Shown here piece by piece: positions 35,769 through 63,248 of a stretch of 64,000 nucleotides of DNA (its first letter is position 1; each line of letters opens with the position of its first letter). The DNA comes from Tribonema minus. Its lineage: Eukaryota > Sar > Xanthophyceae > Tribonematales > Tribonemataceae. The notes beneath the pieces are model-generated. The model did no database searches, had not been told where the DNA came from, and saw only the letters and a program-made list of their open reading frames with translations. The translations under genes were made by a program, and so were the position numbers. The stretch spans positions 124,001 to 188,000 of the forward strand of contig JAFCMP010000479.1 in NCBI GenBank assembly GCA_017506865.1, in the 5' to 3' direction.

Positions 35769-38700
35769 ATGACGAGGTGCTGGTGGCACTCACTGCTGGT
35801 GATTGCAGGACTGGCGGTGATCCAGGCTGTCGGTGAACCTCAGCCTGTTGAGTTCGAGCGCTATGTGCAGCTACGAATTCGCGATCCTGCTGGGATATAC
35901 AACAACAATGGCACCACCCTGTCGGGATATGGAGCTTCTGAGACTCCTTTTGGGTGGCGCAATGGCACAGATCCTCTTCTTACGGATCAGCGAAGCGGCA
36001 TCTCGCCACGACAGGTGGGGCAGTCTGTTCAAATGTGTTTGGAGGGGTGGTCGATGTGGCTATCAGTATATATGTGGCACGATATATGCCTTAGTGGCTG
36101 TGTGCTGTTTCGCGGCAAAAAGCTGGCGGCCTATTTTGCTGTTGACACGGATTTTGACGCGATTTCTATTTCTGCACCATGAAGGCGAAAGTACGTTCAG
36201 GCCCGTCTCGCAACCTGCATGCGCTGCGGTGATGACATTGTCTGCGTGTCGCCTAGCGCATGCAGCAACGTCGACATGACACAGTCGCATGTGGTCGTCC
36301 GACTCTGTGCTCAGTTATTATCATGTGAACCTTGAGGTTTCAGCATCATGACGAAATTCACTTTGCATGCGTTGACCCATCTGATTTGGACACTGCAACG
36401 TGTTGACTGCGCCGCCCATCTATGTACACTGTCAGGTGCTTCGCGACGTGTACCAGGCGGAACTCCGGCCGCCATACAACGACCTTGCGCTGAATCAGGT
36501 GCGGAGAAGGTTATAGCGCCCGAAGATGCATATAAGTAGTAACATATGGCCTCTCCTAATGGCAGATGCTTTAGCAGAATGAGTCCTGCACATGCCTGAA
36601 AGGTGTCAATCATGTGTTCGTGGAGCAGTTCATTTCTGTCTTCAAGTTGTGCGGTGTCGTCGCTCTGGCTTCAACTTGAAGTTCGGCAGCGCAACGGCAT
36701 GGTACAAATGCCTTCGATACGCTCTGCACTCACTGACAGTCTGCAGAACAGTGCGCCGGCAATGCAGCAACGGCCGTAGGCAGTTCCAGCAACTTTAACT
36801 TGATCACTCCGTGAGCCATGGTGTCACAGTGGCAGTCTGTGTACAGCTTGAGCATTGCAGATCACGCTTGCGAGTGCTTGTTACAGTGTTAACTGGCATC
36901 ATGAACTGCCTGCCCTGAGTGCTGTTGAATCATACCCTTCAATGTATGATATTTGTGTGACAGTCCTGATGCAGCATGGCTGACCAATGGCATATAATGT
37001 GCACACTCGTATAGTGCTCATTGACCAGTCATCATGAATTGCTCATGCTGAGACTTGCTGAAGCATGGCATCTGCATCTCTCGCAGGCATGGGCGTACTG
37101 GGGCTTGCTGGTCTTCTATGATCTGGTGGACACAGCACCTGCAGACGACGCCGCCGGTGTGGCCCCTGTAAGTCAACGTCTTGTGAAGCGTGTGAGAACT
37201 TCAAGCTGCCAGTGTGTACACTGAGTATGTACCATCTGAACATGATATATGTACTTTGCGTCAAGTCCTTTTCTTCATCCAGGTCGAGCCTCTGGTGCCC
37301 GGCATAAATCGAATGGGAGGCTGAAAAATCTGGAAACAGGACTGATGCCCTTGACAAAGTGTAAGGAATCGTGTGCCGCAGCAGCTGCTCCCTTCGCAGC
37401 AAGTCACAGTGTTCATGCGGCATGCTGGCTCTCAGGTCAGCATCATGCAGAACGGCGCTGGCAGAACTTCAACTTGAAGTACATGTTACTTCAATTTTAG
37501 GTTGCTCATGCTGGCTCGCACGTCACGCACACCTGTGTTTGTAGGCAACATATGTTGCACCTGCCTGCTAGCCTACTTTGGGGTGAACGTCAAGAGCGGG
37601 GCACTTCCCCGTTGCCCTACTCACAGCATGGTGTGGCAGTTGCAGAACAGGGTGTCAGCATTCAATTTGCCACTGTATGTGCGTATGCATGCAGTCACCG
37701 GTTGGGGTATGTAAGCAAAACACGTTGAAGTAGTACATACATGCACACAAACAGGTGCATGCGTGCTCACTTGCAACGCCGCTCATTGCCCAAGCTGTGA
37801 GCTCTCCGCATTTGCACCTGCTGTTGCCGCTGAGAGCGCCAGCTGATCGCAAGTGCCTGCCTCACCGCGCCGGTTGGCAAGTCTTGCAGCTGCAGCACGG
37901 TCCAGCAAATGCAACTACAACTTGAAGTTTATTGCGGCGCGTTCGCCCCTGCAGCACGTCTACTAGTGTGTTGGCTGCGGAGGCTTCTCGCTACGCTTGT
38001 ACGCTTTGCCTGGCCAACACAATTGGCGTGCCTCATCAGACGTCATGCTATGTATGGCAATCACACGCGGCTTGCCTCATCAGAAATCATTGGCGCTCGC
38101 CTGCGCTGCCGCAGATACCGTGCGATGACGGTGTGTACGACTCACAGTGCCCGCCCCCTACGTGCGGGCTGTGCGGCAAGGAGGCGTGCGGCGCACAGAC
38201 CGTGACGACAGTGCCGTACTCGGGCGTGAAGGACAATTCGAAGGGAAGGCTAAAGGGAAGGCCACTCAACATGGCCACGTCATTCATCGACCTGGACTTG
38301 TGAGTTACCGCGTACATACAGTTTGAGCATGCATGCTGAAGTGTACGCGTACATGCATACATACATGCATGCATACTATACATGCATACATAAGTGAATG
38401 CCTACGTAGCTACACATGTGCATACATCATGATACATACATACATAACATACATACATACATTTATACATTGAATTTCATACATACAAATGTAACATACA
38501 TACATACATGCCGCCTTGCTGCAATGGGTGTTGTCGGTGAGCTCGAAGATGCCTGGCGTCGCCTGCTGCAGCATGCTCCCGTGCTGACATGCATTTGGCG
38601 GTCTTTGCCCCCTTGTCCATAGGCCGAGCAGCGGCCGTGCGGTCACCGTGCTGCAAACACAGGCGTCCGTATGCAACACACGGTTGACTGCCTAGACACC

Positions 38701-41700
38701 ATCCACACACACCACTGCCAATGCCCCCCCGCGTTTCTTCGACTTTTCTGCTGCGCACAACTGCTCACTGCACCACCACCCCATCTTGCGGTTGCAGTGC
38801 TCACGCATCACGCCCCCACCCGCCCCTCTGCAATCCCCCCCCCCCTCTTCACTGCAAATGCATACACAGCGTCTACGGCCGCGACCTGGCCAAGCGCGCG
38901 ACGCTGCGCAACGGCACCAGCTGCGCCATGAAGCTCGACGACTATGGTCTGCCGCTGTTTGACACTGCGACTCAAGAGTGGACGATCGCCGACCAGCGCA
39001 GCGCGCAGCTTCCCGGCACGCTTGCGCTGCACGCGCTGCTGCTGCGGGAGCACAACCGCCGCTGCGCAGAGCTGGGGGGTCCGGCTCCCAATGGCACAGA
39101 CTACTCGTCGTTTCTGGAGTACCTAGAGGGGGAGTCGGGGGGGGGATGCAGGGTGTGCAATGAAACAGACATGGGCAACCCGTTTGACTGCCCGCTGAAG
39201 CCGTGTACGCAGGTGAGAAGAACGAGTGCGCGATTGACAATGCGCGAGTTTGGATATAGGGTTGAGGTGAGGCTGAGGGGGGTCAGCATAAAGTTTGGGT
39301 TTTTATAAGGATTAGAGTTAGTTACTAAGGGTTAGGGGTGACGTGACGCAAGGGCACGCGAGGTGCAACGACGGTGATATAGGGGTAAGATGCAATGACG
39401 GTGATCTAGGGCTAGGGTTAGAGTTAGGCTTAGGGGGTAGCATAAAGCTTGATTTGTACTTTTATAAGATCAAGCGTTAGTTAGGGTCAGGGGTGACTGG
39501 CGCAAGGGCGCGCCAGATGCAATGATGGTGATGTAGGGGTAGGGGTATAGTGAGGCTTAGGGGGTTAGCATAAAGCTAGGGTTAGTATCATGATGAGCGT
39601 TAGTTAGGGTTGGGGTGACGTGTCGCGAGGGTGCGATGACGGTGATGTAGGGGTAGGTTTAGGGTTTGGCTTAGCGGGGTAGTTCAAAGCTAAAGCTGGT
39701 ATCGTGATGAGCATCAATCAGGGTTAGCATGACGTGGTGCGAGGGCGACATGCAATGGCGGTGATGTCATGAGGGATGGGTAGTTCCTGCAACGAATCGT
39801 TGCCGTCGTCTTTCGTTGCACACATTTCATGTACATACTTGGTTTAGATGGGGCCTGTGGTGAGCCAGGCGGAGGTGGACCCACTTGAATGGCCCCTTCA
39901 GCTGTATCACAGCGGTTCTGGCAATTGCAGCTGTGCACCCACTTCAACTGCCACTTCAACTGTAACACTGGCAACTGCAGCTGTGCCCCTGTACACAGTT
40001 CAATCACTGCATCATCAGTGACAGCTCGATTTGACTCGGCTCTACTCGACGACTGAACAGAGGGCGTGCACCATGCACCACTGTCCATCTCGTGGGTGCT
40101 CTGTTTTGCACTCGCACTGCGCTCTCCTCTCACTTCATGTCTTCGAATTTGCTGCAGAGGGCTGCGGATGACAAGTACAGCGCTGCTGAGTGCTGACACA
40201 TCAAACTGTAACCCTAACCTAAAACCTACGTGCACACATCATGCGGCAACGTACATGCCGCGGAGCGACAGCGCACACTAACCCCCCTAACCCCCCCCCC
40301 TCCCCCGTAATGTACCCCGTGCTCTGTCCCCTCCCCCCCCAGTGGGGCGAAGAAGAGAAGTTCCACGCAGCCAAAGCAGGTGTAAACGCTATCTTCCAGC
40401 ACATCACCAACGACTACTTTGTGCCGATGCTGCTGGGGCTCCCGGCTCAGATCCCGACCACCTTGTACGACTACTACAATTCCAGCATGGACCCGTCAGT
40501 GGACATCCTGGCTGCTGTCGCGCTGCGCTGGCCTTGTAGTGCACTTGGCCCTGTTGACAGAGTCGTGGACGAGAATTGGCTCCCTACAACGGCCTGGGAC
40601 ATGACACCAGTGGGGACGGTCGGATGTGTGCCAGCGAAAGTAATGCCTGGGGGAATCACCCAGGGGGCCAAAGTGAACGGCACAGCGGTGCAGAGAATGC
40701 TGCGAGAGGCTGGCGCAAATGCGATCGTGCGCGGTATGTTACTGGGGCAAGCGAGCCAGGTGAGAGAGGTGGTAGTGACGGCGGTGACGCCAATGAGAGG
40801 TGTGCATGCACGCGCAGCTAAGTTGGCGCTTTTCTCTGCGGTATCTGCTGCTGCTGCTGCCGCTTGGGTGCAAAGGGACCCGTGTGTTTAGCGCCAGCAT
40901 GGTATAGAGTTGGCTGCATTGTAAAATCAGTACAACAAAGGCAACTACATTACAGCCACTCCTTCATTCACCGCGGTGCATGCAACCCAGTCGCTGGCAT
41001 GTGCTGCCTTGCTGGGCGCTGCCTTGCTTATCGATTATACATGCCTACCGGTGCTGACTTGCTGATTGCTGCCTTACTTGCCAATACATACCTATCGGTG
41101 CTGATGTTGCTGAGCGCTGCCTTGCTTGCCGATACATACATGCCTACCGGTGCTGATGTCGCTGAGCGCTGCCTTGCATACCGATATTCCTACCCACCGC
41201 ACAGGTGGACGCATTCCTCACGCCGCGCAGCGAGATCTCCTGCCTCAACGCCCCCGTCACCGACATACAGATCGCCAGAGACTTCGGTGTGCCGCCTTAC
41301 AACGTGGTTCGCGAGGAAGTGCTCTCGACCACTGCGGACAACTTCTGGAACGTCAGCGATGACTCTGCTACGGTGAAAGCGCTCTACACAGCGTACCCGA
41401 ATGGTGTGGACGACTTGGACTTTCTGGTTGGCGGTCTGGCGGAGGCACATGTGGGCTCCAGTGCGCTCGGCCCGCTGTTCACGTGAGTACACCTGAACTG
41501 CCCGTGAACTTGCAACCTTGTCGAAACAGGCTTGCTCCACGAAACAGGCTTGCTCCACGGCAGGTATAGCTTGCCGGCTGTCGCCGCGCTGTGCGTCTGC
41601 GCCTTTGGCTGAGTACAGCAAGAAGTGGTCTTTGCAGACGACATGCATGAAGTCGCCCATTTCCCATCTGTTCTTGCGGACTGTGCTGGTAAAGCACCCC

Positions 41701-43001
41701 TGCTTAGACCAACAGTGCGAGAGCTTGTGTCAATTGCAGTACATCGCAGTACACGCCAGGGCCAGTTTACACTACACAGTACAGTGGACTGTGGGTGGCG
41801 AAAGGCAGTGCTCGGCCACTGCGCCGAATGCCACCTTGAACAAGTATATTCGAGATGATTGCATGGTGTGAGAGAGTTTGAACCAGCCACATGACGCGTT
41901 TTGTGAGTGCGTGTGTGTGTGGGGGGGGGGGGGGGCTACAAATTGGGGGATGGGGGGAGGGGGGAATACAAAGTTGAGTTACACCCCCCCCCCCTCCTAC
42001 AGTTGGTGCTTTAAAAACGAGTATGGCAAGTGCATCAGTTAATACTTTGAAATGCTGTTCAAGCAGTGAGTTTGCCCCCCCCTCCTCCCCCCCCCCCCCT
42101 CTCCTGCCCACCTCATGGGGGCTTTCAAAGGCTTGCCACCAAAACACGCAACCCTAGGCATGTCTTGAAGCCAGTATTGACACTGCCTACTCGTGTGTCA
42201 TTCACGTGTGTGCAGACAGGTGCTCTGGGACCAGGTTAGGCGAATCAAGACGACGGACAGGCTCTATCACATACACGCGGTGAGTTTACATAGTCCAGTA
42301 CCCAGCAGGGCAGTCATTTGCAAGGTCGTGCACAGTTTGCTGCGAGCTTTGAGTCTGGTCCAGTAACGCTAACAAAGGGCAGCTTGTGCAAACTCACACA
42401 CAGTTTGCTGGGAGCCATGCACGTTGTCCTGCAAGCTCTCAGAGCAGTACTGTAGCGCTGCCGGGTCGCGTGCAGTGTGCTGCGAGCCAGGCAAGGGTGG
42501 AGGGCGCTGGTTGCCGCTGCCCGTTTTGTGATAGCGCAGTGCCGCTTTGCGTGGTGCCACTGGCATTAATTCCCCACCTTTAGGGTCTGTTCTCAATGCC
42601 CCTTCACCGCTTATTGCCGAGGGGACTTTTGCCTCTCGGCTTCAATTGTGTGTGCATGCGAAAAAGAGTTGCCTATCCCCTTCAATCCTCCAGCGGTGAC
42701 TGCGGATCCTCTGGGGGGGTACATGTGTGGCGGTAAGCGCCGCATATGATTCGTTGTCAGCACTTAGCATCGTCACTACTGAGCCGTGTGCACCGATCGC
42801 CACACGACAACGCCGCGTTCAGTGCCGAGGCACGGCCCTTGCGATATAGTGCGTACAACCCGCTGACGCACATGGCACAATGTCTCGCCATGCTCACGTC
42901 TTCTGGTCACTTTCCCGTGTACCGCAGAATCTTTTGGAGGACTCTCGTCTGACCAGCCTGGCAGCCCTGATGGACGCCAATTGGGACCCCAAGGCGACAG
43001 C
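35769..43001 (+). CDS. Block 1 of oxidoreductase: DUOX-like peroxidase homology domain
   Basis: Residues about 25-584. After the signal peptide (WWHSLLVIAGLAVIQA) come LRIRDPAGIYNNNG, VLRDVYQAELRPPY, WGLLVFYDLVDT, FIDLDFVYG, QRSAQLPGTLALHALLLREH, ARDFGVPPYNVVRE, DFLVGGLAEAHVG, GPLFTQVLWDQVRRIKTTDR and LTSLAALMDAN. These occur in the order of animal heme peroxidases and dual oxidases, where W-G-x-x-x-x-x-D, V-Y-G, L-R-E-H-N-R, R-D-x-G-x-P-x-Y-N, G-G-x-x-E and D-R mark the fold. The distal His position of the W-G-x-x-x-D-H-D motif is Tyr114. The proximal His position of the R-x-G-H-T motif reads RWPCSA, with Cys371. The Arg of the distal pocket (Arg235, in QRSAQ) is kept. Catalysis by classical peroxidase chemistry is therefore doubtful. 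Confidence 0.85.
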
Positions 43002-46000
43002 GTGAGCGGAAAAAGCACAGTACACTTTTTGATATAGTCTTTGAACACTGCTTGTCGCAATCACCAGTGTAAGCGCGAAGATCGGAGTCTCGCCTGAACA
43101 TTCTTGCTGCAAAGAACAATGCTTTGGGAGTATGTTCCTTGATCAGCTCGGCTTGCAGCACTAGATGCTCTTTGAGCGCTGCACAACATCAAGTCTTGCA
43201 CTACGCAAGGCTCATTGCTCAAACAACACGCTTACATGCGCATCACCATGCGCTGTGTGCCACTTTGCTTGGCCCTACTCTGAGCGCAAGCACGGCAACA
43301 TCAACAACAACAACCTCCTCGCCGGTAGCAACTCATCAAATGGCTCACTTGGCGCGCGAACAATCCTTCCCATGAACGTTCCAGTGCAGGCACCTTGCAC
43401 AAATACATACAGTACAGGGACCGCTATGGTGTGTGCCACAGGAATAGGGGGCTTGAGCTCATCCTGAGCTCATGTTTTTTTGTATGACTGTTTTGACCAC
43501 GAAGGTGCATTACTGTGTACACGGGGAGCAAGGGTGACTTATAAAGCAACACACGTGCAGGCTCATCTGGCGCATGGCTGATGCCTCTCGCTTTCACTGC
43601 ATTGAGACCTGCTATAATTCATCAGCGTTCGCGTCAGTCAATCCCTGCCTGTACTGCACGGTCACGTTGCATCCAGCTGTCAAAGTCCGATTCAGGTTCA
43701 GTCGCGGTTGAAGTGCGGCTCAGGTTCAGTCCCTCGCTGTCCAGAAACTGCCCTTTTCTTTCGCACACTTTCACCTGTCGGTTCATCCTCACTTGTCGAT
43801 ACAAGTCATGCTGACAAGAAAGCACCTCCTCGTCTGCACGATTGCAGTGTACCGAAATACTACCCCGAGGACAGCTTCAAGGTGGAGACAACCATCATCA
43901 ACGAGGAAGCCAAGAGGAGCTCATCCACGCAGTCGCTGGAGCTTGTGCAGGTAAACAGGGAGACAAGGCTGCCGCTGATGATGTGCAGGTAAACAGGGAG
44001 GCAAGGCCCCTGATGATAATGTGCAGGTAAAGGATGGCTGCTTGGGAGACAAGGCTGCTGATGATGATGTGCAAGGCTGGAGCTTGTGCGGCTAAATGGG
44101 GAGACAAATTTGCTGATGTTGATGCAGTATGGCGGCGCTTTGTCTCTGGCATGCAGGCTCCTGAGGGCTCGCATTTCCGCTCTGCGCAGTGTGCTATGTA
44201 GCTGCATGTGAGCGTGTGTGGAGCGCTGCCACACACATGCGCTCATGAATTCACGGTGGATCAGACAGCTGCTGTTTCGCGCACAGTGGTGGCACGTCAC
44301 TGGTGCGGGTGGGTGGCAACGCTCCTCGTGCACGCCTGAAGTTCAATACTTGAAGTCACTCTTATGTGTCAGACTTGACGTTCATCTGTACTCAAATGGA
44401 TCGCCGCGCTGCTGTGCGAGCTTGACACGTGTTCACCACAACCCACTTGGCACATTGTGCCACTGCGGCAGGTCTGGAATGCATTGACATGCACATCCCC
44501 CCCCTCCCCCCCCAGAGTCTGGTATGCGTACATCTGTGCACAGCGCACGAGCATCCGCTTTGCCTTTGTTCACCCGGTGATGGCTTCCAGGCACACACGC
44601 GCAGAGGCGTGAGTTGACTTGTGACTTGACTTTTGACTTGACTTGTGCCACCGCCGTCGCTCCGCACAGGACTACACGCTGTCGTGGCATGTGGACACAG
44701 ACGCCGACACCATCACCTTCACCGCTGTCGTCACCGGCATGACCGATTCCGGGTACCTGGCCATTGGCCTGGGAAACCGGATGGTGGGCGCAGACATTGC
44801 CTTTATTGCTATTCAGGTACGCCATCAGAAAGCGTGGAACACAGTTTACCAGTGCATGCACACAATGACAGAGAGGCGGCGGCTGTAGTCATGTACTTCA
44901 GCCTCTCTGCTGAACAACAAGAGGGCTGTGATCCAATACCATTGCCTCTCATACTGACACACATGATGGCACTTGAGGGATTGTCGTGTTCAGGGGTGAA
45001 CCGTGGTCTTCTGCACTGCACGGAGCCATGCCATCCATTTCCATGCCTAGAGTGGTGTGCGCGCTGCGCAGACTTGCGCAGACCCACAGCACCGACAGTG
45101 TTCAGAGATCCACAGGAGTTCATGTAAAATATATGCCCCTTTGGACATGCAGCCTCATGCCTTCGTATACATTGTGTCCGATACTAACCAGGGCACGGAC
45201 CCCCCTTCTCCCCCAAAAACCGGCACTTTGACCTCTCCCCTTGTTCTTCGCTTCAGGGGGGTGTGTGGACCGCCTCCGACCGCTACGCCACCAACAACAA
45301 GCTGCCGGATGTAGACACTGCCTTGATGACCCCCACTGGACAGTCGGGCAACAACGACTTGCAGCTGCTCAACCACACCCTCATCAACGATGTGAGTCAG
45401 CGAGTGAGTGAGTGACCAGGTCGCTCGCTCGCACTGAGCCGTTGGTATGTAACCCTAACCCTAACAAACGGAGTGCAGCAGCGTCAGCATTCGACGCTGT
45501 GCCCCGTGGCCGCCAGTGCGGTGCAACAGCCAGAGCGGAGTGCGATGCCACTTATCCTAACCCTAACCCTAATCTAACCCTAGCCCTAAGGCCAGCGTGG
45601 ACTGTACCGCGCACACGGGAGCGACGTAATGGTTTGGGGGTTGCGGACTTCAAGTTGAGGTGGCCTCGCCGATGCAGGGGGACTCGCCAGAGAGGGGTAG
45701 GCCCGCGGCTGCTGAAGCGTGCCATGGGTCTGGTGGTCGAAAGAGCCGTTCTTGCATGACATACGCGCGTTCCGCTGTCAGATAGCGCAGCCCTCTGCCA
45801 ATCCACTTTATTCTGCTGCGCACGCATGCCGCCGTGCTGGGCTAGCCACCGGCGATACCAATAGCACTGACTGGTATCAGCAAGCACGCTACTGGCGTGC
45901 GAGCGAGTGATTGCGCATATAAGCATAGTGTGCATGTCCCAGCCCCCCCCACCCCCCCCCCCCACCCCTCAGTGTAGCCCCCCCCCCCCCCCCTCCCCCT

Positions 46001-49000
46001 CGCGATGTGCAGGTGGCAACAGTTACGTTCTCGCGCAGCCTCCACGCGGTGGATCCCGTTCTAGATCGCGCAGTTGTGAATGAAGCGCAGGACATGATCT
46101 GGAGCTTCAACCCGCAGTCGCCCACGGAGCAGCACGCGCCCGATCACAGAGGTGCCATTCTCATGCCTGCCATGAATGCATTTATGAATAAAAAGCGTAG
46201 ATATGGTGGGTGCACGCCCTGGCCCTTGTAGACAGAGCGCTTTTGGGACACGTATTCGTAAGCGTCGCAAGGACATGTGTGCGAGACTGCTACACGCTAC
46301 GTGCAGGCATGCATGTATGTTCAAGGCTGCTACGAGATGCGTCATCAGCCGGTGCTGAACAGTGCATCAACAACACAAAACATTATTTTGCTCGTGTCAG
46401 AATCAGCTAGAACTCTTTTATGTTGCTCATGTTGGTGTCAGCGTTTGATTCCACTTTTCCTGCGGCCGTGCTCCTGCAAGCACGCCGCCTGCTGCCTAAC
46501 GTCGTTTGCGAACAGATGCCAACTTCAAGTGGAATGGAACGCCACGTGCACTGACCTGCAGCATGCAGAGAATCAGCAACCACTCAACCCCAACTTTGTT
46601 ACGCTGCGCACAGGCACCTATCAGATCAACTTCTTCAGTGGCGAGAGCACATCTGTGCCAACTGGCTCCAACAACGGGTTTTTTGCCTTCCACGGCATGG
46701 TCATGCTGTTCTCGTGGGGGCTTGCGGCACCGTGCGCAGTCTACGTGGCGCGCTACAAAAAGGCATGTACATATGCGTACGTACTGTTCTTCAACTGCGT
46801 GCTCTACCTCAACTGCACACGTGTCTTGCGCATCTCGCAGCATTTGTACAGCGTGTGTCACGCTCGCACTCACAGTGCTCTACTTCAATGGTTCGTCAAG
46901 TGCACGTTTCTACTTCAAGTGCTCGCATCCTCCAGGCGCCGCGCGCTTCACAACGCTTACGCTACGTACGTCAGACTTGCAACGCACATTGCTTGCACAG
47001 CATGCCGCTTACAAAGGCGCCCCGATTTAGAAAGCATCATCATGTGCCTTTGCTGAGCTGTACCATTGCTGAGCACTGACGCGCTGCTGTCAACTGTGCT
47101 GTGGCGCCTGTGTTTGTAGCACTGGGCCAACTGGCTCGATGTGCATGCCATGTTGGCGTCCTTTGCAGTGGAGGCGACTCTCCCCATCGCCATCGCCGCT
47201 ATGGCCTCCACTGACGGCAAGGTGAGATCGCATGTGGAAATTTTATATATGCTGCTTTGCAGGCAGGTCATGGAGGGTATGGGATGGGCATGCGGCTCAT
47301 ACCTACAGTGGTCGCCCCTGCTGCGGTGACGTTACACGTGTGCTGCGCATTGCCATTACAAGTGTGCTGCGGATGAACAAAACGTTCAGCAGCAAGCCGG
47401 TGTCACATAAGTTGCTCAGTTGTCACATGGGTTTCTCCGAGCGCAGTTTTTGTTGCTGGCGTATATACGCTGTATGCTAGACTTCATGCAGCAGCTTCTA
47501 GCAGGAGTGTGCATACATGTGTAGTCTGGCAGCACTGCTCAGCAGCACATGTTTAGTGCGATATACCCCTGAGCGCCCTGTCCCTGTGCTGACGCAGACG
47601 GTCAGGCCCAGGCTTGCCACGTTGGTCATGCCTTGGGTGCTTAGGCGATCCAAGCCAGCAATCACATGGCTGTGCAAGCCAGTGCATACATGGCTACGCT
47701 GCGCTGTGCCTGTCCTGCCAGTATGGTGTCGCTTACAGCAGTGAGCGTGTGTATGTTGCTGATGTCTTCTGAGTCATGTCATGTCATGTCCAAAGCGTTT
47801 CTTGCATGAGTGCTACGCTATTCGTCTTTTGGCTTGAGGCACCTGTTTGTGACCCAAATCATGTGCTGAACCAGCCAAGAGCCAGATGTTCCCCAAGTTA
47901 TTCCAAAGTGATACTTTCTCTTGCACCTGTGTCGCTTATAGCCTGTCTCATTTCGTTTGTTGTTTCATCTCTTCTGGCGCGCAGTTCACCTCCAGGCATG
48001 GCAAGATTGGGCTGGCCATTTTCTGTGGGGTAATAGTGATGTTCATCAGCGGCACCATTCGCAAGATGGGCATTGAGAACCAAGGCAACAAGTATCTAGG
48101 GACCAACTTCGACCGCATTCACCAGGTGCGTACCTTGTGATCCACCCCCCCCGCAACTTAATTTACAGTTGAAGTTCTAAAACGGGGTTTATGCTGCAGC
48201 AGGCCACATGGCGATTGCAGGTACTGGTTTCGGAGCACGCGTGGATTTTGCAGGTGTGATGTGTATCAGGCATTACAGTACACCTGACTGATGCCGTCGC
48301 TGCTGCCAGTACCTTGTATCAACTGACAAAACAGCGGTGCATCCAAGCAAGGCCGTGTCGCACGCGTCTGTCTTTTCTGCGGCCTGCTGCCCCTCTTGCT
48401 TGACATGAGGTGCCTCTGATGCAGCAGCGCTCAACTCAGCGCAGTGCCTGCGCATGTGCTACGGTGGCGGCGGCGCCTGCAGGGCGCATGGCGCCAGCCG
48501 ACAGGCCTGCCGCCCCGCTTGCCTGACAGCATCTGATGCCTTGTATGAAGCCTTACAACGCACGCCACCCGAGCTTCATGCTGCCTTTCCAATGTCTTAG
48601 TTTGCGTGCTGCTGGTAACATACAGGGCTTATGCTTAACAAATGCGCGTTGACTCACGGCAGCTGCTCAGTTTTCCCCCTCCCCCCACCCTCCCCCAACC
48701 CCTGCGACACAGATGAACAAGCACCTGCACCGCTACATGGGGAAATGCCTGGTGGCACTGGCCTTCTTCAACGTCTACCTAGGCCTGGTTATCATCGCGC
48801 CCGACGCTTCTGCAACCAGCGTCATCGAAATCGGGGTGAGGCTTGTAGATTGATAGAAGGGGCAGACTGAAAGGGGCTGCACAAGCAGTCTGTTCGAGCT
48901 GTGACAACGAAGTGACACTCGTGGCATCGGCGAAACAAGCACAGGATTTGATGATGGCGAGGATATTAATTGTGCTTGCTGGCCTAGGTGCTCTGCTGCG

Positions 49001-52000
49001 CCTGCGGAATGTAAAGCTCAAATCGTAGAGGCCTGGTCAGCATGACACTGCTGCGGCTGCCATCACTTCCGATTTGCGGGCTATGTAGAGCCCTTCTCTC
49101 AGGGATAAGTCATGTCATGTTGTATATAGAATCTCTGACGCATCGAGCGTTGTGCACTGCTCCTGAGGGTGTGGGCATAAGTATGCATGCATGCATGTGG
49201 CGGCTTCGCTGAGGCCTTAGTCAGCATTGCTCAGCACCACCAATACATTACTACTGGCTCAAATCACTACAAGCTCACCCTCTTGCTGCCATGGGTGACG
49301 TGCGTGCTGCGCAGGGGATGGACGCTGCTGGTGAGACGGCTCTCAGCGTACAGGTGAGTTTGTAGTGATTGGTCACAGTTAAACTGCGTGCTGGCTTGAT
49401 TTTCCGCTTTCTGAAGTATGGCAGCACCCAAGGTGTAGACTAGCAGTGAGTGATGCGAGCACACCAGTGCGCCTTGCGATTGGAGCTTGCCATGGTGCAG
49501 TATCAAGCGCCGTTCGTACGACGCTGTCGCTGTCGTCGTTCAAACGATAGAAGGGCAATATACACTTTGACTTGAGTCAGTTGTCGGCTGCTTTACAAGT
49601 CAGTCAAGACTCGTCGCCGATCTGCACTGCACCTGCTTCCCTCCGATCTTGGAGTCCACCTGGTGACTGGTTTGAGCACTGGCCATCTCCGCGTGAACAC
49701 ATCAAACTGCATGCTGCATGCCAGACGCTCATTCTCGTTACTTCATGTTCAAGTTGAACGTGCGGGGTGACGTGCCACAGCAGCATTCTACACAGTTACA
49801 TACCTACAGGGAACGCGCACCCTGTGTCAGTGCAACTTACAGTTGAACTTGCGCACTTCAAACCGCAGGTCCCCGACATCTTCAACATCGTGCGAAGAGT
49901 CTTCTTCCCCGTGACCCTACTGCTCATGGCCATCCTCTTCATAGCTGCGGAGGTGCACCTGCAGCTGGGAAAGTACCGCACAAAGGTGGACATATCGCAG
50001 AAAATGGGCCTCCCGTCGTACTCCCTGGAGCAGTTCAACGACGGCGTCATGCAGGCAAGTCGCATGTTGAAGTCTGGAGTGAAGTTGTGCTGAGCAATGG
50101 TGCATGCGTCAAGCAGCAGCACGAATGTCCCCGCTGCGTGTAGTGGACCTTTACTGCAGTCGCTGGTCTCATTAATGAATGATGTTGATGAATTCATGAA
50201 TGTTTGATAATGATGAATTGCTTCAGGCATCATGCAGTTGCGTAGTTTGACGACGGTGGGCAGATGCAGGCATGTCCAGCGCATTGAGAATTGTTTGTAC
50301 AGGTGCTGAAGTACAGCTGGTGGCAATCACATATTTTTGCATGGCGGGCTACCTGCTTAGCTCGCCATGTCTGTATGCACTTATCTTACATAGCGCACAT
50401 CATGTCCGTGCTCGATGTTTCTGCATCATGCATGTCCCAGGTACATTGTCACATGTTACAATAAGACGCAGCAGCGTTCTACCTGTGCTCCTCTACGCAG
50501 TGTAATCTCTGCAGTGAAGCAGCGCAGAGTTACTGAGTCGCATATACTACCTAGCTGTTACAGTGCTTGAGTTGCGCAGTGAGTTGCTGAGTCGCATATA
50601 CTTTTGCTGCGCAGGGAGAGAAGTGGGTGATCGTGAATGATGCCATAGTGGATGTGAGCGACTACATGAAGGTGCATCCCGGCGGCTCCAAGGTGCTCAA
50701 GGACTCCATTGGCACAGACATCACCAAGGACATCATGGGCGTGCAGCCTGTGGGTCAGGGAGTCATGCAGGGCAGCCACAAGCACAGGTTGGTCATGCTC
50801 AGTCCTGCAATCTGTGCGACCGTTTGCTGTGATGGTCAAATTGGCTAAAATGGCGACCGCCAAACCTATTTGATACCCTCTCGCTGCTTGATGCAGCGCT
50901 TGCCATGCTTGAAACCCACTCCTCTGCAGTTGCGCCCACTCTTGAACTTGCTTGTTGTGTGACTTTTCAGCTAGCCTACATGCACACATGCATAAGACTC
51001 CGATGCCTGGTGCCACCAGAGTGGTTTGCCTTTGTCAACGTCACCGTTCCCATCATGTGGCACCCGGGATCAGCAAAGCGAGGAAGCGCGGTTCGTGGTC
51101 AACATGATCTCCCACAACACTAAAGTTGAAGTTCGCGTGCCTCCGTCTTTGCTGTGCAGCAACAAGGCTTGGCTGGCCATCCAGGCCAACATAGTGGCTC
51201 ATGTGGATGTGCACGAGGAGGTTTTGGACTACCAACCCGTCTCGCTGGGAGAGAGGTCAGCTGCGCACGCATGTGTCAATGCATTCAATGAGTCCTTGAA
51301 AAACATAGACGCATTGCAGCTAGCTTGTGCGTATGCTCCAATGGGGGCGCCGCAACGTGAATGCGTGGAGTGGCAAAAGTGCGCTGAGCATTGAGCGCTT
51401 GACATGACATGATGCGAGTATCTGGACATGACATGATGCGAGTATGAGCACTGATTGACCAACACGTACAGCATTCTGCCATTACTCGTCTTTGATTGTT
51501 AAGTACCGCTTGCGCCGCGAGCAGCAGCATGAATAGGCAGCTGAGACTGGATGAATTTTGCTCACATTCGCTTCATCAAAGCTTTGATACAGATACACTA
51601 ATGATGTTCCATTGGCTTGGTTCTGCAGCAAGAAGGGTCTGTCGAGCAGCAAGGGCAGCAGCAACCACAGCAGCGGCAGCCTGCGGCGCAAGGCGATGGG
51701 GGTCGAGCAGCAGTTCATCAAGTTTGTGCTGAGGTAAGTCACATGGTGTTGAAGTTTTGCTGGTGACATCGTATTTTGTTGGGCTGGCCACGTGTATGGG
51801 TTTAGTACCATGTGCTGCCTTGGCTCGAAACATCGGCAGCCCGGGGATCAACTGCAAGCTGTGTTAGACAAACCCCAGTAGGCAGAGCAGTAAAAGTGTA
51901 TGCTTGCGTCTGCGGCTCCCAAAATCTTCCAAGCCAGTGCCACGGCACATGACACAGGTTACTTCGCATGCAAACTGCATCAGCACAGCACAGCTAGGTT

Positions 52001-55000
52001 GTCAAATAGAAGTATTGTATTTCTCCTGCGCATAAATGGCGTGGAAGAACTTGCTCACCTTAATGCTACAAACAATGCGCAAGAAGCAGCCTTGCGCATC
52101 AACAGGGCACCACTGGTGCAGCACTGCCATCAGCGCAAACCTTCAGAGGGCCTGATCGCCACATGCGCGTCGCACATACCGCAAGTATCTCGCATCACGT
52201 GCAGGCGTGACGACACCACTCATAAGTGCGCCTCCGATTGCGCCCGCAGGAGCAAGAAGCTGCTGTCTCTCAACAGCAAAAACAGCCCCGTCTTGAGCTT
52301 TGTGTTTGAGCCCAAGGACGCAACGCGCATCCTGCCTCTCAACGTCGGCTTCTACCACAAGTTCAGGGTTGTCAGCGATGGCATGGTCATCCAGGTATGC
52401 ATGTACATGTGGTGAACGTCATGATGATCGACAGTGAACTGCATGGTGTGCTCTCAGTGAACTATCTGTGCTGCCTTTGCACTGCATGGCGTACCTCTGG
52501 CTAACGGCACGGACCTGACTAATGTTCGATATCCATGCTTGTGCATGGCATGAGATGTGTAGGCCTGGCACACCCTTCCTGCAACCGCTCCTTGATGCTC
52601 CAGGTGAACCATCTGTGCCTCCTCTTACTGCATGGCGTACCTCTGGCGAACGGCACAGACCAGGTCAATATTCAACGTCCATGCTTTTGCATGGCATGAT
52701 ATCTGTAGGCCTGGCACAACCTCCCCACAACCAATTATGCAGTTTCTTTTCTCAGTGGCAGTTGCCCTTGGCACCCCCCCCATGCTGGGCTGTGAGCATA
52801 TCGCCAAAGCGCCTTTTCGTTCAACCTCAGCAGAACCTGTTGTTGCGTGCTGCTGCTGCTCTGGTTGTGTTTGGTGCTTTATAGCGGAGCTACACTCCCG
52901 TGGTGCAGCATGTGATGCCATCAGGACGGCTGGGTTTTGAGTATTACATCAGGTGAGAGACACAAGCACCTGTTGATAATCACCCGGTTATAGGTCACAT
53001 CAGATTTATCACCTGGATACCTTGCAAGGCAATTGATTGGTGATGGGTGGTGAGCCACTAGCATGAGCATGTGTCCTGTACTTCAGAGAGGGTTGAGGCT
53101 TGCTGTTCGTCTGAAATCTTGCGGTGTACATATCCACGCACCAAAACGCCATGGTTAGGGTTAGGCTTAAGGTTGAGCGTTAGGTCTTAGGGTTAGGGTT
53201 GGGGATAGGGTTAGGTACAACCCTAGCCACGATTGCAGGCATGACCTACAAACAGCTCACCCATTTGCAATGCTACACACAATGCCCAATTAATTCCATG
53301 AGCAGCCATGAGGCATGGGCGTCAACAAAGTGTTGCCACCGAACTTCACGTCTGACGTTGTGTTAACCACGCATACTGGCATACCTGCATTGCGTTGCCC
53401 GTGGCAGGCTGTATGAGGATGGGCAGATGTCAGCTGCATTGGCGCATCTCAAGGTTGGCGACACGGTGCGCATACAGGGGCCCTTCGAGATCAAGGAGGT
53501 ATGTTGATGACGATCCATCAAGCACTTCAACTTGAAGTAATATTCGGTTGCCTGTAAAAACACACAATTTTACAAAAAGTGGGAATGACGCATTGCAAGT
53601 GCTATGGTGAAGCAGAGTTCCAGGCGCTTAATGTAGCCTGGGCACCTGTCTTAGCTGCACCTTGTTCTCGCTTGGGGTCTGGGGTCGTTGCTGGCTTCCT
53701 GGCATACTTGCGCATTTATACCTGCATCATCGTGACTATTGATTGTTGCTGATGGTCACAATGTGGAGCTCTTCGCCCAGTGCTTGCTAAAACGCCATTG
53801 GAGATGCATGTTTGTTGTGCCTGCCACTTCTCCAAACGCATCACAGCACACCTGTGCCATATGGACAGAAGATGATATGTTGAGCGTTGCTGTTCTCTTG
53901 CCGACGTGACAGATCCGCCACACGCCGGAGCATGTGTACATGATTGCGGGGGGAACCGGAGTGACCCCCATGCTGCAGCTCGTGCGCTGTCACATCAACC
54001 GACAGCACGCGCAGGTCCTACACGGCAGCACCAATGTACGTGAACTCATTGCAAGCGAATCTGATGCCCATTGGTCTATACACATGCAACTACCACGGTG
54101 CAGGCCTGGTATGTGGCAGTAGCTCGGTTCAAAGCTATCAGAGCGCTTTCATAGCACATATGAACAGTCAGCACAGGCAGCTTGTGGGGTGCCACCGCAT
54201 GTTCTGTCAAGGTCCAGCAAGTCAAAGTTTGACAGCTTGCGACTTCTTGTCGGCTTGCATCCGGGATTCAGGCAGTCACTGGAATTGCGTGTATCGAAAA
54301 GACTTCACGCCACCTCACCGTGCACATGCCCCACCCTACGGTACCCTAAACTCAGGGCTGAGCTCAAACAATCACACTGCTGCTGCTGCCGCCGCCGCCA
54401 CGCCCGCAGCCGCAGCTGCACCCGGACGGCAGCCTGGAGATGGGCGTGATACGCGCAGAGAGCCGCTCGGACGACGGCGGCAGCAGCGGCGGCGGCAGCG
54501 GCAGCGTAGCCCTCAGCGGCGAGTCGTCGCCGCTGCCGCCGCTGCGCTCGGAGCTCAAGTTCATGCGGCGCGAGTCGGGGCTGCGCGCAGTGCGCAACCT
54601 GGCGACGCTCTTCAAGACCAAGGACCGCAGCGGCGGCAGGGCGGAAGGCGCACTACAGGAAGAGCGCGCGCGTTGGGAGGCAGACCAGGGGGCAGAGGGC
54701 GCGCACGCCGTGTTTGGCCGCGCTGCACAGGCCTCGGGCGCCACTGAGAATGTGGGTTGCGGATGACGTTTTCCCTGGCGTAAGCTTGTGCAGTGTGTAC
54801 CCAGGACTTAGGGTTAGGGTTAAGGTTACACTAGGGGGCAGAGGGCGCGCACGCCGTGTTTGGCCGCGCCGCGCACGCCTCCGGCGCCGCTGAGAATGTG
54901 GGTAGCGGGTGGTGTTATGACATGCGTACATTGCTCTTGGCTGTTTGCTTGCGCGGAGAATGTGTGCAACGAGTGTCATCTCGCTACGCGTACATTGCGC

Positions 55001-58000
55001 TTTGCCCTGACATTTGCGTGTGCCGTGTGTACCTAGTATCGGCGCTTGCAAGAACAGCTCTGTGCATGAGCGGTGTAATGTGTGCTGTGGCCTGGTGTGC
55101 GGCAGCACAGGTCTGAGATAGTCGCTCGACACAAGCCGAAATGCGCAGCGCTTGAAAGTCTAAGCTCACCACTACCGCTCACTAACGATGGCGTTCCTGG
55201 TTGACACATGTTTACTGCTGCACTCAGGGCTTCCCTGCTTGTCGAAGCGCGCTGTCCCTCTCTGTGCGCAAACTTGTCGGTCAGCGCTCAGAGCCGATGC
55301 CCCGCGGGCCAATCCCCTGGCCTGCTGTAGTGCCACGATGGCCCTGTGCACTGCCGACGCTTCTACCTCCCACCTGCGCACCGCTGATGCACTCTGAACT
55401 TAAACAGGATTTCGACGACAGAGAGGCGGAGCCCGACATCAAGTCCATGACGCTCCTGTGGCAGACGCATGACGATTTGGACACTTTCTGCGCACAGGAC
55501 CTTGATCATTTTGCCAAGAGCGCGAACCAGCTTGCGGCGGCAGATCCGGACACCAAGTGAGCACTGCCATGTAGCCGTCAATGGTTGGTGTACGCGTCCT
55601 GGGACTCTGCTGTTGGCCTGCCTTGCATCTTATGCATTTCAAGTTTCTGGTGATCTTATATTGATAGATTTGATCGATATGGTGTCGAAGGGGTCAGTCC
55701 TGGATGGCGCCAAGTAGCAGCGGCATGCGATGCTGGCTCAGCGCTGTCGATATTCAACGCGGGCACAGTTTATTTTCAAGCAAATGTAAACGCAATTGGG
55801 TTATGCCATTTGAGCGTGGTTATGTGCAGCCATCGTCACAGTGTGTATCCCTTCGGTTGTGCTGGCACATCCTTTGCAGCAGTAAAAAGCAGCACGCTTC
55901 AGATGCTGTAAGAAAGAAAGAAACTGTCAAGGAGTGCAGCACCAAGTCTGTCTGTCTGCAAGAAAAGAGGCCCGCATATGGCGAGAACCAACACTGCTCA
56001 TCACATATAACCCACGTTTCAGACGCATGGAGCCCGCGACTTGAACTTCAAGTTCACCATTCCACCATAACCAACAAGCAGCAGCACAGCCAGTGTGACA
56101 ACGAAGAACTTTGCCCGGAGCCCTGACGCCAGCTCCCATCACTGCCCAAATGTCTCACACCTCTACCCCCCCCCCCCATTGCAGCGGCCAGTTCTACTAC
56201 GTGCAGTTTGCGAGCCGCGTGCTGGTCAAGACGGGCATCACATCGCCCGGCGGCCGCCACCACGCCACCTTTGACCAGCACATGCAGGCCATCCGTGGAG
56301 CGCTGACGCAAGACGGCGCCATCGCCTGCGGCACCGCGTGCCCCTCCTGGTGCGGCGGCAAAGGCTCCACCGTCGACGCCATCGTGCAGCAGGAGAACGC
56401 CGCCGCCGCCGCCAAGAAGCCCGTGCCGCCTGCCGCTGCTGCAGTTGACGACATAGAGGCGGCGCCCATCTTTTCGGTGGGCAGGGGTGGTGGCGGCGCT
56501 GCCGATGGCGGCGATGACTTAAGCGAGCTGACGCGGGAGCGCGCTAGGAGCCACGATGCGGCTCCGCCTTCGCAGGGGGAGAACAGGCTGAAGAAGGCTG
56601 CGTGGCAGGTGGGACACTGCGAACACTGTAGCATAACAATGCGCGGCTGCCCCTCTGCAACCCCTGCTAAGATGCAAACCCTGGTAGTAAGATTGTGCTT
56701 GAGAGAGTGGCCATGTGTGCGCCTGTGCTTGTCAGATGGCATGGCTCAGCTGCTGGAATCTCCGCACAGTAAACAACGTTGGCTTAGGCTTGCCGCCAGC
56801 GCCATTAGGCTCCAGCGCCAACAAATTGTGCATAGATGGCCTGTGATGACCCTGACACTGCCGTTTCCTTACAGATTTCACGGTACTTCCACGCATGTGT
56901 TTGCGGAAGCAACAGGCGCACCGCATTGCTTATGCCAGGGCGTACTTCTCAGTAGTACGCTTTGCAGCAGCAGCACGCAACGTCATCGGGCACCAATGCA
57001 TGAGCGCTGCCAATGTCGTTACCTGCAGCTCGTGGCGGTCATCATCACCAGACTGCATGTGGTCAAGGGAGTCAGTGCCACTAGTTGCCACTGCCAGCAC
57101 CTGACGCCAGCAGCAATCTGCCTTCACTGTGACGCAGTTGCAGCGCAGACGCTGCCAGTGCCTCTGGCTTGCGCAATGCCTGGCCTCAGGGCACTTTGGG
57201 ACAAATACTCCTGCTGACTCCACTATTGACAGCTCCACCCATGTTGCTGTATATGTGGCAACTTACCATGGGCAGGGCTTCATGACCTCAGCAGCAACAA
57301 CAGCTCTGATGGGGGGGGGCAGCACAGCTCAACAACTGCGGCATCAACGACTGCCGTGTTGAACCTCCGCCTCACTCAATTGAATACACACTCTACGAGT
57401 AGTAACGTCTCATGAGGTCCTCTGCTGACCCTACTCGTACTGTTGCCAACCCACCTCCAGGTCTTTGAATTCATAGCTACCATGGGCGAGTCTTCGCTGG
57501 CCAACAAAACCTCTGCAGCAGCGCGCCGCCGCAGCAGCATGCTCGGCAGTGGCGGCGGCGGCACCATTACGAGTTCTGGCATACATGCTGCACTGGCAGC
57601 CACTGCCAGCATGGCAGCTACTGCGGATGCGAGCACTACGAGCTCTGAGACTGGTTCGACGGCGCTTCGCCAGTTGACACGCAGGTATGTAAGCGTAAGG
57701 GTATGTTTAAAATTAGGGCATGTGGCGTGTAGCAAATGACATTGAATTGTGGCGATGGAACTCTGGGTAACTGCCGACGCTGTTGGCGGGTTGACTGCCA
57801 CAAAGGGCGCTTGTTGTCGTCTTGCACGCGCTTTAATACGCCGAGGTACCTCCATTGTCGTATCGTAGCAATGCTGATTACCACATAAGCATACTGTCCG
57901 AGAAACTCTTCAATGGGATGATCAACTCATAAGACACCCACACAGCATGACTCCATGGCCATGACATTTCCTAACTCTTTCACAAGCACCGCTGGTTAGC

Positions 58001-61780: not shown

Positions 61781-61948
61781 TTATTTCTTGATGGATTTTG
61801 TCTCTGTGAACATGACGTGTCGCCGCACGATGGGGTCGTACTTTCGGAATGACAACTTGCGTGTGATGGTGCGTGGGTTCTTCTTGGTGGTGTAGAAAAA
61901 GCCCGTACCGGCCGTCGAGAGCAGCTTTATTGCAATCGCCGTTGCTTT
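61781..61948 (-). CDS. MRPL33: Ribosomal protein bL33, last exon (probably mitochondrial)
   Basis: A minus-strand exon of 55 codons ends with TAA at 61783-61781. It contains [20 protein letters not shown], then [19 protein letters not shown]. This is the whole bL33 fold (K-L-x-S-x-A-G-T-G-x-x-Y-x-T-x-K-N, then L-x-x-K-K-Y-D-P-x-V-R-x-H-V-x-x-x-E). The family is usually about 55 residues, so only the start or a targeting presequence is missing. A CTGCAG acceptor immediately precedes (61954-61949), and no in-frame ATG follows it, so the first exon lies upstream (to the right) and was not found. Assignment to mitochondria is inference: algae with red-derived plastids usually keep rpl33 in the plastid genome. 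Confidence 0.85.
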
Positions 61949-61954
61949 CTGCAG

Positions 61955-63248
61955 CGTGACATGTGTGCAGTACGCAGCACCACAAAACAAGTCAGTTGAC
62001 AATATCTGACAAGTTTGCCTGGCAGGGACTGGAACTAATGCTCATGGCTGCACATTGGGCCGATCTGTGGCGCATGCACAGTGTAACCAAACCGCTGCGA
62101 GTGTTCCATTCAGCTCGTCGACGATTGGCACATGATAATACGGCAAACATTGTTAAAGGGGGTCAACACTTGGGCAGCCTTCATGGCTTGCACCAGTGGT
62201 AACCTATGCAGGCTTAGCTGATGCTTCAAACAGCATACACCGCCAAACCATGGTGCAACATGGCAATTATGAACGTTGCATGCACCGTGATTGAGTCGCG
62301 GATTTGCACCAAGGTTGCCTGCGTAGCGTGATAGTGCCTTTTGCGGCCAAGTATGCCAGAAATGGGGGTATTTTCAGCACCAACGCCGCGGGTGTTTTCT
62401 CCCGTCAACCGGTTTAAGCCTGTCGGTGTTGTTGCCTGATTCAGTGCTGAATTTGAAGTTGTCATCATATGGCGGACAAATTCGACAGTCAATGCTAACA
62501 GATTCTGGTGCTGCCGGTCGGCGACACGGCTGAACACGGCAACCTGCCTGCTGTGCCCCATGCCCCTAGTTGTGGATGTATGACCATAGTCATGATGGAG
62601 CTGCCTTCAACCAATGGCTGGCGCGGACTTTGTGATGTGACCACACGTGAGAGTTCTCAAGCCAACTTCACAAAGAACTTTAGGAAGGCGCACATGAACA
62701 CATGAAAGCACACGGGCACACGGTGTCGTGCAGGTAGTCAAGTGTTCATTAGGGGGCACTTTGCACCCCTATACTACTTGGGGGCCAGATTCGAGTTTGC
62801 GTGGTAGCACCTCAGTGTTCGAGCCTTTGTGGTGACGGCTCCTAGACCTGGCCTGGGCATCAAAGGCACAAAACGCGGCGCACGGCCTGCAGATTTGTGT
62901 GCACGTGCTGCTTGCCGCTCATGGCTCCTCACCTCGGCACACTGGCGTGAACGGTACACAGAACATCAGATTACCAGCGCGTAACAACAGCCCTGGACGA
63001 CCAGCAGACTTGTGTCTAAGGCCTGTCAAGGTTGGTTAGTTAACGGCATCAACTTTGATCATCAGTGCGCACCTTTCCCGCCATGCCTCCACTCCAGTTG
63101 CCAGGCTGAGCTGTAAGACTCCTCCGTGAGGCTCCGATGCCAGCAGCTCCAGGAGTCGCTTGCAAGTTTTTTTTTTTCTTGTTTGAGCCCCACTTCAAGT
63201 ATGGTATGACTTGAAGTATTTCGTGTGTTGTCAAAAAGAGCGAAAAAC
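61955..63248. other. Intergenic, no recognised gene
   Basis: The first exon of the bL33 gene should lie here on the minus strand but cannot be fixed. A minus-strand frame of 111 codons at 62561-62226 has no family features. Upstream of the eIF4E start, a T-tract with TTCTTGTTTG at 63165-63185 and ACTTCAAGTATGGTATGACTTGAAGT near 63192 are the only notable motifs. Confidence 0.4.

Follow-up and report, generated by a model that had tools for sequence, protein, structure and literature searches.

A fusion of peroxidase homology, DOMON, cytochrome b561, cytochrome b5 and reductase domains in Tribonema minus, a candidate transmembrane NAD(P)H-driven reductase

The window analysed here is a 64,000-nucleotide stretch of the Tribonema minus genome (NCBI GenBank assembly GCA_017506865.1, contig JAFCMP010000479.1, positions 124,001 to 188,000 of the forward strand), and the gene in question lies on its + strand at 35769..59802 (stop codon included). 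It encodes a single polypeptide that joins a peroxidase homology domain, a DOMON domain, a five-helix cytochrome b561 domain, a cytochrome b5 domain and a reductase part of the flavin adenine dinucleotide (FAD) and nicotinamide adenine dinucleotide (NAD) binding type. The heme ligands of the DOMON-b561-b5 wire are nearly invariant in this protein and its relatives, and those of the peroxidase domain erode. Our analysis leads us, by a narrow preference, to read the protein as an NAD(P)H-driven transmembrane reductase of the CYBDOM type, which would have its own b5/b5-reductase module and carry the peroxidase domain as a lid or docking part. T. minus is a xanthophyte stramenopile by taxonomy lookup.

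The gene was rebuilt from exon anchors in the window sequence, the exons were joined and the reading frame was followed. The phases of all 33 exons are consistent, as the earlier note on this DNA had stated, and the predicted protein has 1830 residues rather than the 1858 given there. The first version had 1821 residues and was corrected against the transcript protein P0001, which made exon 26 longer and shifted the start of exon 27. The introns are 357-1130 bases long, thirty of them of the GT-AG type and two (introns 14 and 19) of the GC-AG type, both of which were confirmed by P0001. A sequence search with the window protein yielded ten proteins, among them P0001, which comes from a Trinity-assembled transcript in EukProt. 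Since 1572 of its 1619 aligned residues are identical to the window protein (97%) and not all of them, P0001 represents a near-ortholog or another strain and not the same allele. Of the 32 exon junctions it crosses 28, with 8 or more residues to either side of each; junction 9/10, where the peroxidase part gives way to DOMON, is among them and is crossed also by P0002, the database protein model of the window locus. This public model skips exons and lacks model residues 365-445, 809-823 and 1179-1216. Transcript support begins at model residue 212, where P0001 starts, so that exons 1-4 and the signal peptide are without it; an N-terminus resembling that of the window protein is present in P0003, the NCBI model of the paralogue at locus C63, which itself lacks residues 539-584.

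The PF03098 search of the T. minus genome gave 17 matches at six loci, namely C479 (the window), C63, C335, C540, C542 and C543. Domain queries mapped on the surrounding DNA placed the peroxidase, DOMON, b561 and b5 parts on one strand and in this order at all five other loci, followed by FAD-domain matches at C63, C335, C542 and C543; within the DNA examined, the NAD part was found only at C335. At C540 this DNA ends at the b5 domain, and P0004, the gene model of the locus, continues to FAD and NAD matches. P0004 looked peroxidase-less, yet peroxidase exons lie upstream of it, so it is a truncated model. Because P0001 crosses the peroxidase-DOMON join and the six loci are collinear, the peroxidase, DOMON, b561, b5 and reductase parts are one polypeptide, in agreement with what had been claimed before, and the separate peroxidase and DOMON transcripts considered in the earlier note are contradicted by P0001. 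A secreted peroxidase and a DOMON-b561-b5 reductase encoded by two adjacent genes and wrongly joined might be suspected from the 846-base intron between exons 9 and 10 and from the Chrysoparadoxa model P0005, which has no peroxidase part. We rejected this reading on P0001 and the six loci that keep the order on one strand, and it retains almost no probability when fungal and Cafeteria proteins hold peroxidase and DOMON-type parts in one protein and P0004 is merely truncated.

The domains were assigned by Pfam on the first version of the model, with matches up to E 1, and their residue ranges are those of that version. Exon 1 (35769..36014) encodes a signal peptide-like N-terminus, with hydrophobic residues 3-27, and the start of the peroxidase part. 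The peroxidase homology domain continues through exons 2-9 (36436..43001), that is exons 2-5 at 36436-36498, 37087-37167, 38115-38299 and 38870-39212 and exons 6-9 at 40343-40759, 41205-41482, 42216-42279 and 42928-43001, and it matched An_peroxidase (PF03098, residues 74-559, 2.5e-46) as well as PDB peroxidases by sequence. Exon 10 (43848..43950), found in P0001, P0002 and P0003, links the peroxidase part to DOMON, the fusion point being junction 9/10. The DOMON domain (PF03351, residues 618-743, 1.8e-16) is encoded by exons 11-13 (44670-44816, 45257-45391 and 46013-46151) and holds Met656 (44781-44783) and His753 (46133-46135). Exons 14-19 (46614..50054; individually 46614-46762, 47120-47221, 47985-48125, 48713-48835, 49315-49353 and 49869-50054) encode the b561 domain, which was recognised by five hydrophobic segments at residues 781-978 and by His785, His817, His847 and His895. 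The cytochrome b5 domain (PF00173, residues 1004-1049, 7.7e-10) with an HPGG motif and His1026 lies in exons 20-21 (50615-50787 and 51160-51255) and is followed by a Ser-rich linker in exon 22 (51629..51733), seen in P0001 and P0002.

The reductase part starts with exons 23-25 (52250-52394, 52885-52952 and 53408-53498), which encode the FAD-binding domain (FAD_binding_6, PF00970, residues 1144-1227, 3.5e-11) with an RSYT motif at residue 1179. The nucleotide-binding motif GGTGVTPM (residue 1244), of which the relatives keep GxG and P, is in exon 26 (53913..54035). Exon 27 (54410..54751) is a low-complexity insert within the NAD domain and occurs in P0001, P0002 and P0003; by eye, a near-copy of its end (GAEGAHAVFGRAAHASGAAEN) lies just downstream at about 54835-54900, a duplicated exon piece that is absent from P0001. 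Exon 28 (55408..55556) carries the TLLWQTHDD strand-helix of the NAD domain (residue 1401), exons 29-31 (56185-56608, 57461-57684 and 58326-58543) the remaining NAD domain with a long low-complexity insert, and exons 32-33 (58950-59209 and 59743-59802) its C-terminal part, VSGPAGFVDKVE...ILYLD, and the stop codon; P0004 and P0005 have a motif similar to that of exon 28 and a similar ending. The domain list of the earlier note thus stood for An_peroxidase, DOMON, Cyt-b5 and the FAD domain, all above cut-off, for b561 through its helices and four His only, and for the NAD domain below cut-off. The only NCBIfam matches were to flavin reductases and fell far short of the cut-off, and the relative P0016 had none at all; the top PDB match by sequence of the paralogue P0004 was a b5 reductase.

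The conservation of the wire was read from a table over DOMON, b561 and b5 with 13 rows from stramenopiles and fungi, three of them from T. minus; the table omits P0007, P0008 and P0009 (broken b561 models) and P0001 and P0002 (near-copies of the window protein). The DOMON Met and the four b561 His are present in all 13 rows, including that of the window. The DOMON His was found in 12, the exception being a gap in the model P0003 where the C63 DNA does encode His, and the b5 His likewise in 12, with a partial Nowakowskiella protein as the exception.

The relatives are spread over fungi and stramenopiles. Besides Tribonema and Chrysoparadoxa, Blastocladiella emersonii, Gigaspora margarita (two proteins) and Entrophospora were among the matches listed for the window protein. 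A first profile search (A1) returned Tribonema proteins only and did not widen the distribution. The profile search A3 used five query proteins, four of them fungal, scored the 7997 candidates sharing most words and gave 87 proteins up to E 1e-15; its counts are lower bounds because P0001, P0007, P0008 and P0009 of the query alignment do not appear among the matches. At least eight of the 87 combine An_peroxidase with DOMON-type and/or b5 domains, and these come from Blastocladiella emersonii, Blastocladiella britannica, Rhizophagus diaphanus, Sorochytrium milnesiophthora (two), Quaeritorhiza haematococci, Cafeteria roenbergensis and Nowakowskiella. In Pfam, the Rhizophagus protein has peroxidase, DOMON, b5, FAD and NAD domains above cut-off and b561 just under it (21.6 of 23 bits). 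In both Sorochytrium proteins the peroxidase, b5 and FAD domains pass the cut-off and NAD falls short of it, as do one b561 and one DOMON match. The Quaeritorhiza protein has peroxidase, DOMON, b561, b5 and NAD above cut-off and no FAD match. For Cafeteria, the present model matches peroxidase, DOMON and b5 but not b561, FAD or NAD, and its four b561 His align. The Nowakowskiella protein is partial, stops by eye at the start of the b5 domain and has DOMON and b561 below cut-off. Across seven relatives, the b561 model PF03188 matched above cut-off in P0014 and P0015, below it in four and not at all in P0016. The complete domain order was thus demonstrated in part of the relatives only, and because the order recurs, wholly or in part, in Blastocladiomycota, chytrids, Glomeromycota and Cafeteria, these proteins form a family and the window gene is not a single odd gene. 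Taxonomy lookup placed two of the fungi and Cafeteria in Blastocladiomycota, Chytridiomycota and the bicosoecid stramenopiles, respectively; the other fungal relatives we take to belong to these fungal phyla or to Glomeromycota. An SH3-like stretch was seen in the reductase part of Sorochytrium P0014 (0.0061) and Quaeritorhiza P0015 (6.7e-6), both below the PF14604 cut-off, and in the relative P0010, by eye, DOMON-like parts occur twice and b561 is separated from b5 by a long acidic insert.

The peroxidase domain of the window copy, when aligned with peroxidases, is without both axial His, with Tyr114 (37117..37119) at the distal and Cys371 (codon TGT, 40535..40537) at the proximal position. 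Arg235 (38997..38999) is retained, and Gln238 stands at the next site compared (39006-39008); these two positions we take to be those of the catalytic Arg and of the heme-ester Glu. The residue table and the tree covered 12 family rows, 7 of 10 DUOX, 8 animal and 17 bacterial peroxidase domains and one from a green alga; P0001, P0002, P0004, P0005, P0008 and P0010 were left out, having a partial or no peroxidase domain, and of the other profile matches a chosen part was taken. Within the family the distal His occurs in three of the 12 rows (two Blastocladiella and Cafeteria), the catalytic Arg in three (two T. minus and Cafeteria), the heme-ester Glu in none and the proximal His in nine, or nine of the ten non-Tribonema rows; one Sorochytrium protein has Gln at the distal and Asn at the proximal position. 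The DOMON-bearing wire is accompanied here by the same kind of loss as in DUOX, where the distal His was found in 0/7, the Arg in 3/7 and the proximal His in 1/7 rows. Both His are present in the animal peroxidases (8/8), and the bacterial rows keep the proximal His in 17/17 and the distal His in 16/17. Given in the order distal/Arg/proximal, the T. minus loci read Y/R/C in the window, Y/R/Y at C63 (P0003), H/R/Y at C335, C540 and C543 and H/R/H at C542, so that the Arg is kept at all six and the proximal residue is Tyr or Cys at five and His at one. Cys371 may be a recent or strain-specific change, since a single base change separates TGT from a Tyr codon and Tyr is the residue of P0001 at this position.

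Judged by its residues, the window peroxidase domain is probably non-catalytic, and an active peroxide-using peroxidase is unlikely in this copy; the domains of Cafeteria (H/R/H) and of the C542 paralogue may still bind heme. The protein sequence is nevertheless constrained. Comparison with the C63 paralogue over residues 131-1204, without exons 21-22, gave ratios of nonsynonymous to synonymous substitution rates (dN/dS) of 0.27 for the peroxidase part from residue 131 (448 codons), 0.49 for the linker and DOMON (176 codons), 0.04 for b561 (228 codons), 0 for b5 (57 codons) and 0 for the covered FAD part (71 codons); dS varied from 0.16 to 0.44 between parts, so that the ratios, all of them below 1, may have been affected by gene conversion. 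The lost peroxidase ligands and the low-complexity inserts could also be taken as marks of a decaying, functionless duplicate. We rejected this on the dN/dS values of 0 to 0.49 and the frame that stays open over 33 exons, and with a near-ortholog transcript and intact wire ligands besides, it is very improbable. The constraint on the peroxidase part, together with the H/R/Y sites of C335, C540 and C543 and the H/R/H sites of C542 and Cafeteria, might instead favour a peroxidase or a catalase-like enzyme fed by NAD(P)H, in which the DOMON heme would supply electrons to a heme in the peroxidase domain. Distal His and Arg with proximal Tyr is a pairing known from catalases. We hold this to be unlikely, as the window has Tyr/Cys and C63 Tyr/Tyr, the distal His and the Arg are each found in three of 12 family rows, and the fungal members mostly lack the classical peroxidase site.

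The nearest comparison for such a layout is DUOX, in which an N-terminal peroxidase homology domain with lost heme ligands is likewise followed by a membrane electron chain and a FAD/NAD module. DUOX differs in having a ferric-reductase/NOX core and EF-hands, in place of which the window protein has DOMON, b561, b5 and a predicted FAD_binding_6/b5 reductase-type module. Among the Pfam matches of the window protein up to E 1 there was neither the ferric reductase/NOX core PF01794 nor any EF-hand family, and accessions that we take to be EF-hands are listed in the 10 A3 proteins joining PF03098 and PF01794. In the tree of 45 peroxidase domains, a moderately supported branch (83/83) has the 12 family rows on one side, the seven DUOX rows form a clade that excludes the family (100/100), and the eight animal peroxidases group together (97/93), joined by the green alga Cymbomonas (100/99). 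Membership in DUOX was rejected on the missing NOX core and the missing EF-hands. A clade of Tribonema with DUOX was weakly rejected (p-AU, from the approximately unbiased test, 0.0365), and the stem leading to the two Tribonema rows is very long (2.6). The family and DUOX peroxidase domains nonetheless lie on one side of a branch (91/83), so the two may or may not share ancestry. The convergence with DUOX proposed earlier fits the differing membrane and reductase modules; full convergence is not shown when the peroxidase domains share a branch side. The other part of that proposal, a b561 core in place of NOX, agrees with the b561-type helices and His and the lack of a PF01794 match. Against the PDB, the window peroxidase part matched 8s6c (lactoperoxidase) at 1.9e-22, myeloperoxidase at 5.8e-14 and DUOX1 at 2.2e-5, and the Cafeteria part matched 8s6c at 3.1e-95, peroxinectin A at 2.1e-74, DUOX1 at 1.2e-70 and myeloperoxidase at 3.4e-44. 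The predicted fold of the Cafeteria protein (mean predicted local distance difference test score, pLDDT, 66.2) appears to comprise a peroxidase part made of alpha-helices, a part rich in beta structure, five long helices and, at the C-terminus, a small further part, and its best PDB matches were peroxidases, with DUOX1 at rank 3. For the low-confidence Chrysoparadoxa model (mean pLDDT 53.4), NADH-cytochrome b5 reductases matched first.

The wire itself resembles the CYBDOM proteins (SDR2/FRRS1, Drosophila CG8399, Arabidopsis HYP1 and CRR), which, in the passages cited, have an extracellular DOMON domain with a heme Met/His pair and, after it, a b561 domain that holds four heme His and, in HYP1, has five helices. 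The window protein shares the DOMON Met/His and the four b561 His, without a PF03188 match. HYP1 was described as conducting electrons across the membrane from ascorbate in the cytosol to Fe(III)/Cu(II) by way of three modelled hemes, one held by the DOMON Met/His pair and two in b561 (PMC10784544), and CRR as an ascorbate-dependent ferric reductase (PMC10784552); the CYBDOMs so described are without a fused b5, FAD/NAD reductase or peroxidase domain. By analogy with HYP1 and from the order of the parts, we infer for this presumed plasma-membrane oxidoreductase an electron path in which a cytosolic NAD(P)H/FAD module of the cytochrome b5 reductase type would load the fused cytochrome b5, the b5 heme would reduce the two-heme five-helix b561 core, and this core would pass electrons through the membrane to an outside DOMON heme held by Met656/His753. 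The fused b5 and reductase would take the place of the dependence on cytosolic ascorbate, and indeed the b5/FAD module suggests a donor other than ascorbate. The DOMON heme would pass the electrons on to an acceptor outside the cell, for which ferric or cupric chelates are the most likely candidates and O2 the second choice, metal reduction being preferred only because the CYBDOMs in the cited papers do so. The window peroxidase domain, probably non-catalytic, would then act outside the cell as a lid or docking domain, as has been suggested for DUOX; DUOX peroxidase domains are described as lacking residues required for activity, and a docking role was put forward for C. elegans BLI-3 (PMC6411640). 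An extracellular N-terminal half fits the N-glycosylation-like sites, 9 of 11 of which precede the membrane part, and the N-to-C domain order fits the outside-to-inside membrane oxidoreductase of the earlier note.

Several points weigh against this reductase reading. NAD_binding_1 (PF00175, residues 1241-1261, 0.0036) is below cut-off and the NAD half is split by long low-complexity inserts, so that NAD(P)H use is putative. The b561 model PF03188 gave no Pfam match on the window protein, and the donor of the CYBDOMs in the cited papers is ascorbate and not NAD(P)H (PMC10784544, PMC10784552). The fold models are poor and were used for folds only, not for any domain arrangement. The constraint on the peroxidase domain and its Arg at all six loci indicate that it may do more than dock. 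Finally, ferric-reductase/NOX-type domains occur elsewhere in the T. minus genome (6 matches to PF01794, at C268, C290, C11 and C46), which also counts against a counterpart of DUOX, the next candidate, in which the wire would reduce outside O2, giving superoxide or H2O2 that would serve in signalling, in cross-linking of the wall or in defence, and the peroxidase domain would be a maturation or dismutation element. The logic of a ligand-less peroxidase domain on a transmembrane NAD(P)H chain, with the axial His lost in both, speaks for such a counterpart, as do the branch side shared by the two kinds of peroxidase domain and the link between the DOMON cytochrome AIR12 and the generation of superoxide that is reported in PMC10784552. 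Considering that the ferric-reductase/NOX core and EF-hands are missing in Pfam, that CYBDOMs are presented as metal reductases in the cited papers and that the window peroxidase part is closer to lactoperoxidase and myeloperoxidase than to DUOX1, we regard it as a possibility worth keeping, though clearly the less likely one.

Other known proteins share parts of the reductase design proposed here. The FAD/NAD module appears to be of the same fold as that of cytochrome b5 reductase and b5-fused reductases, among which are nitrate reductase and Ncb5or, and we know of no b5-fused reductase that feeds a fused transmembrane b561. The DOMON-bearing FRE proteins of Naegleria, Albugo and Phytophthora (PMC3591440) also place an extracellular DOMON on a transmembrane ferric-reductase-type protein; their membrane core is FRD, and a peroxidase part is not mentioned in the available portion of that paper. 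This survey of the FRD superfamily, to the same extent, names DOMON-FRE and peroxidase-NOX fusions and not the peroxidase-DOMON-b561-b5-reductase order, and the accessible parts of an insect b561 survey (PMC10691727) and an Ostreococcus paper (PMC4855317) give b561 only with DOMON (and reeler) domains. The Rhizophagus, Blastocladiella and Sorochytrium proteins, named 'heme peroxidase' or 'DOMON domain-containing protein frrs1L', have the same order and, unlike T. minus, mostly keep the proximal His. Our literature search, which covered titles and abstract starts among the matches listed, with most subscription journals outside its scope, found no description of the architecture. The parts are each known, and the literature searched has no account of a decaying peroxidase domain placed on a CYBDOM wire that brings its own NAD(P)H module. 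That no protein with this order had been described, as the earlier note supposed, thus holds for the publications searched and not for databases, where proteins of fungi and Cafeteria carry the order wholly or partly.

The neighbours of the fusion gene in the window are an open reading frame immediately upstream, at 34372-35097 on the + strand, whose match to a PUB domain (PF09409, 1.6e-8) narrowly passes the cut-off, and, downstream, a stretch of ribosomal protein L33 (PF00471, 5.5e-15) at 61783-61948 on the - strand. A weak eIF4E match (PF01652, 0.0026, below cut-off) at 63210-63536 on the + strand is perhaps the first exon of an eIF4E gene.

Transmembrane NAD(P)H-driven export of electrons to metals or oxygen is mostly known from NOX, FRE and DUOX, and here b561, DOMON, b5 and b5 reductase give a similar layout, once more topped by a peroxidase domain that sheds its heme ligands. 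A bolder and rather unlikely extension is that these proteins are an ancient and so far undescribed class in fungi and stramenopiles parallel to DUOX, with a peroxidase domain on a CYBDOM wire that has its own NAD(P)H module, that the peroxidase site is undergoing remodelling within this alga, and that the catalase-like pairing, Tyr being at the proximal site of four of the six T. minus loci and accompanied by distal His and Arg at three of these, could handle peroxide with cytosolic electrons. The family offers a second case for the question raised by DUOX, namely the purpose of an inactive peroxidase domain. Its members, now automatically named or unnamed, are candidate iron reductases or sources of reactive oxygen species in arbuscular mycorrhizal fungi, chytrids and algae.

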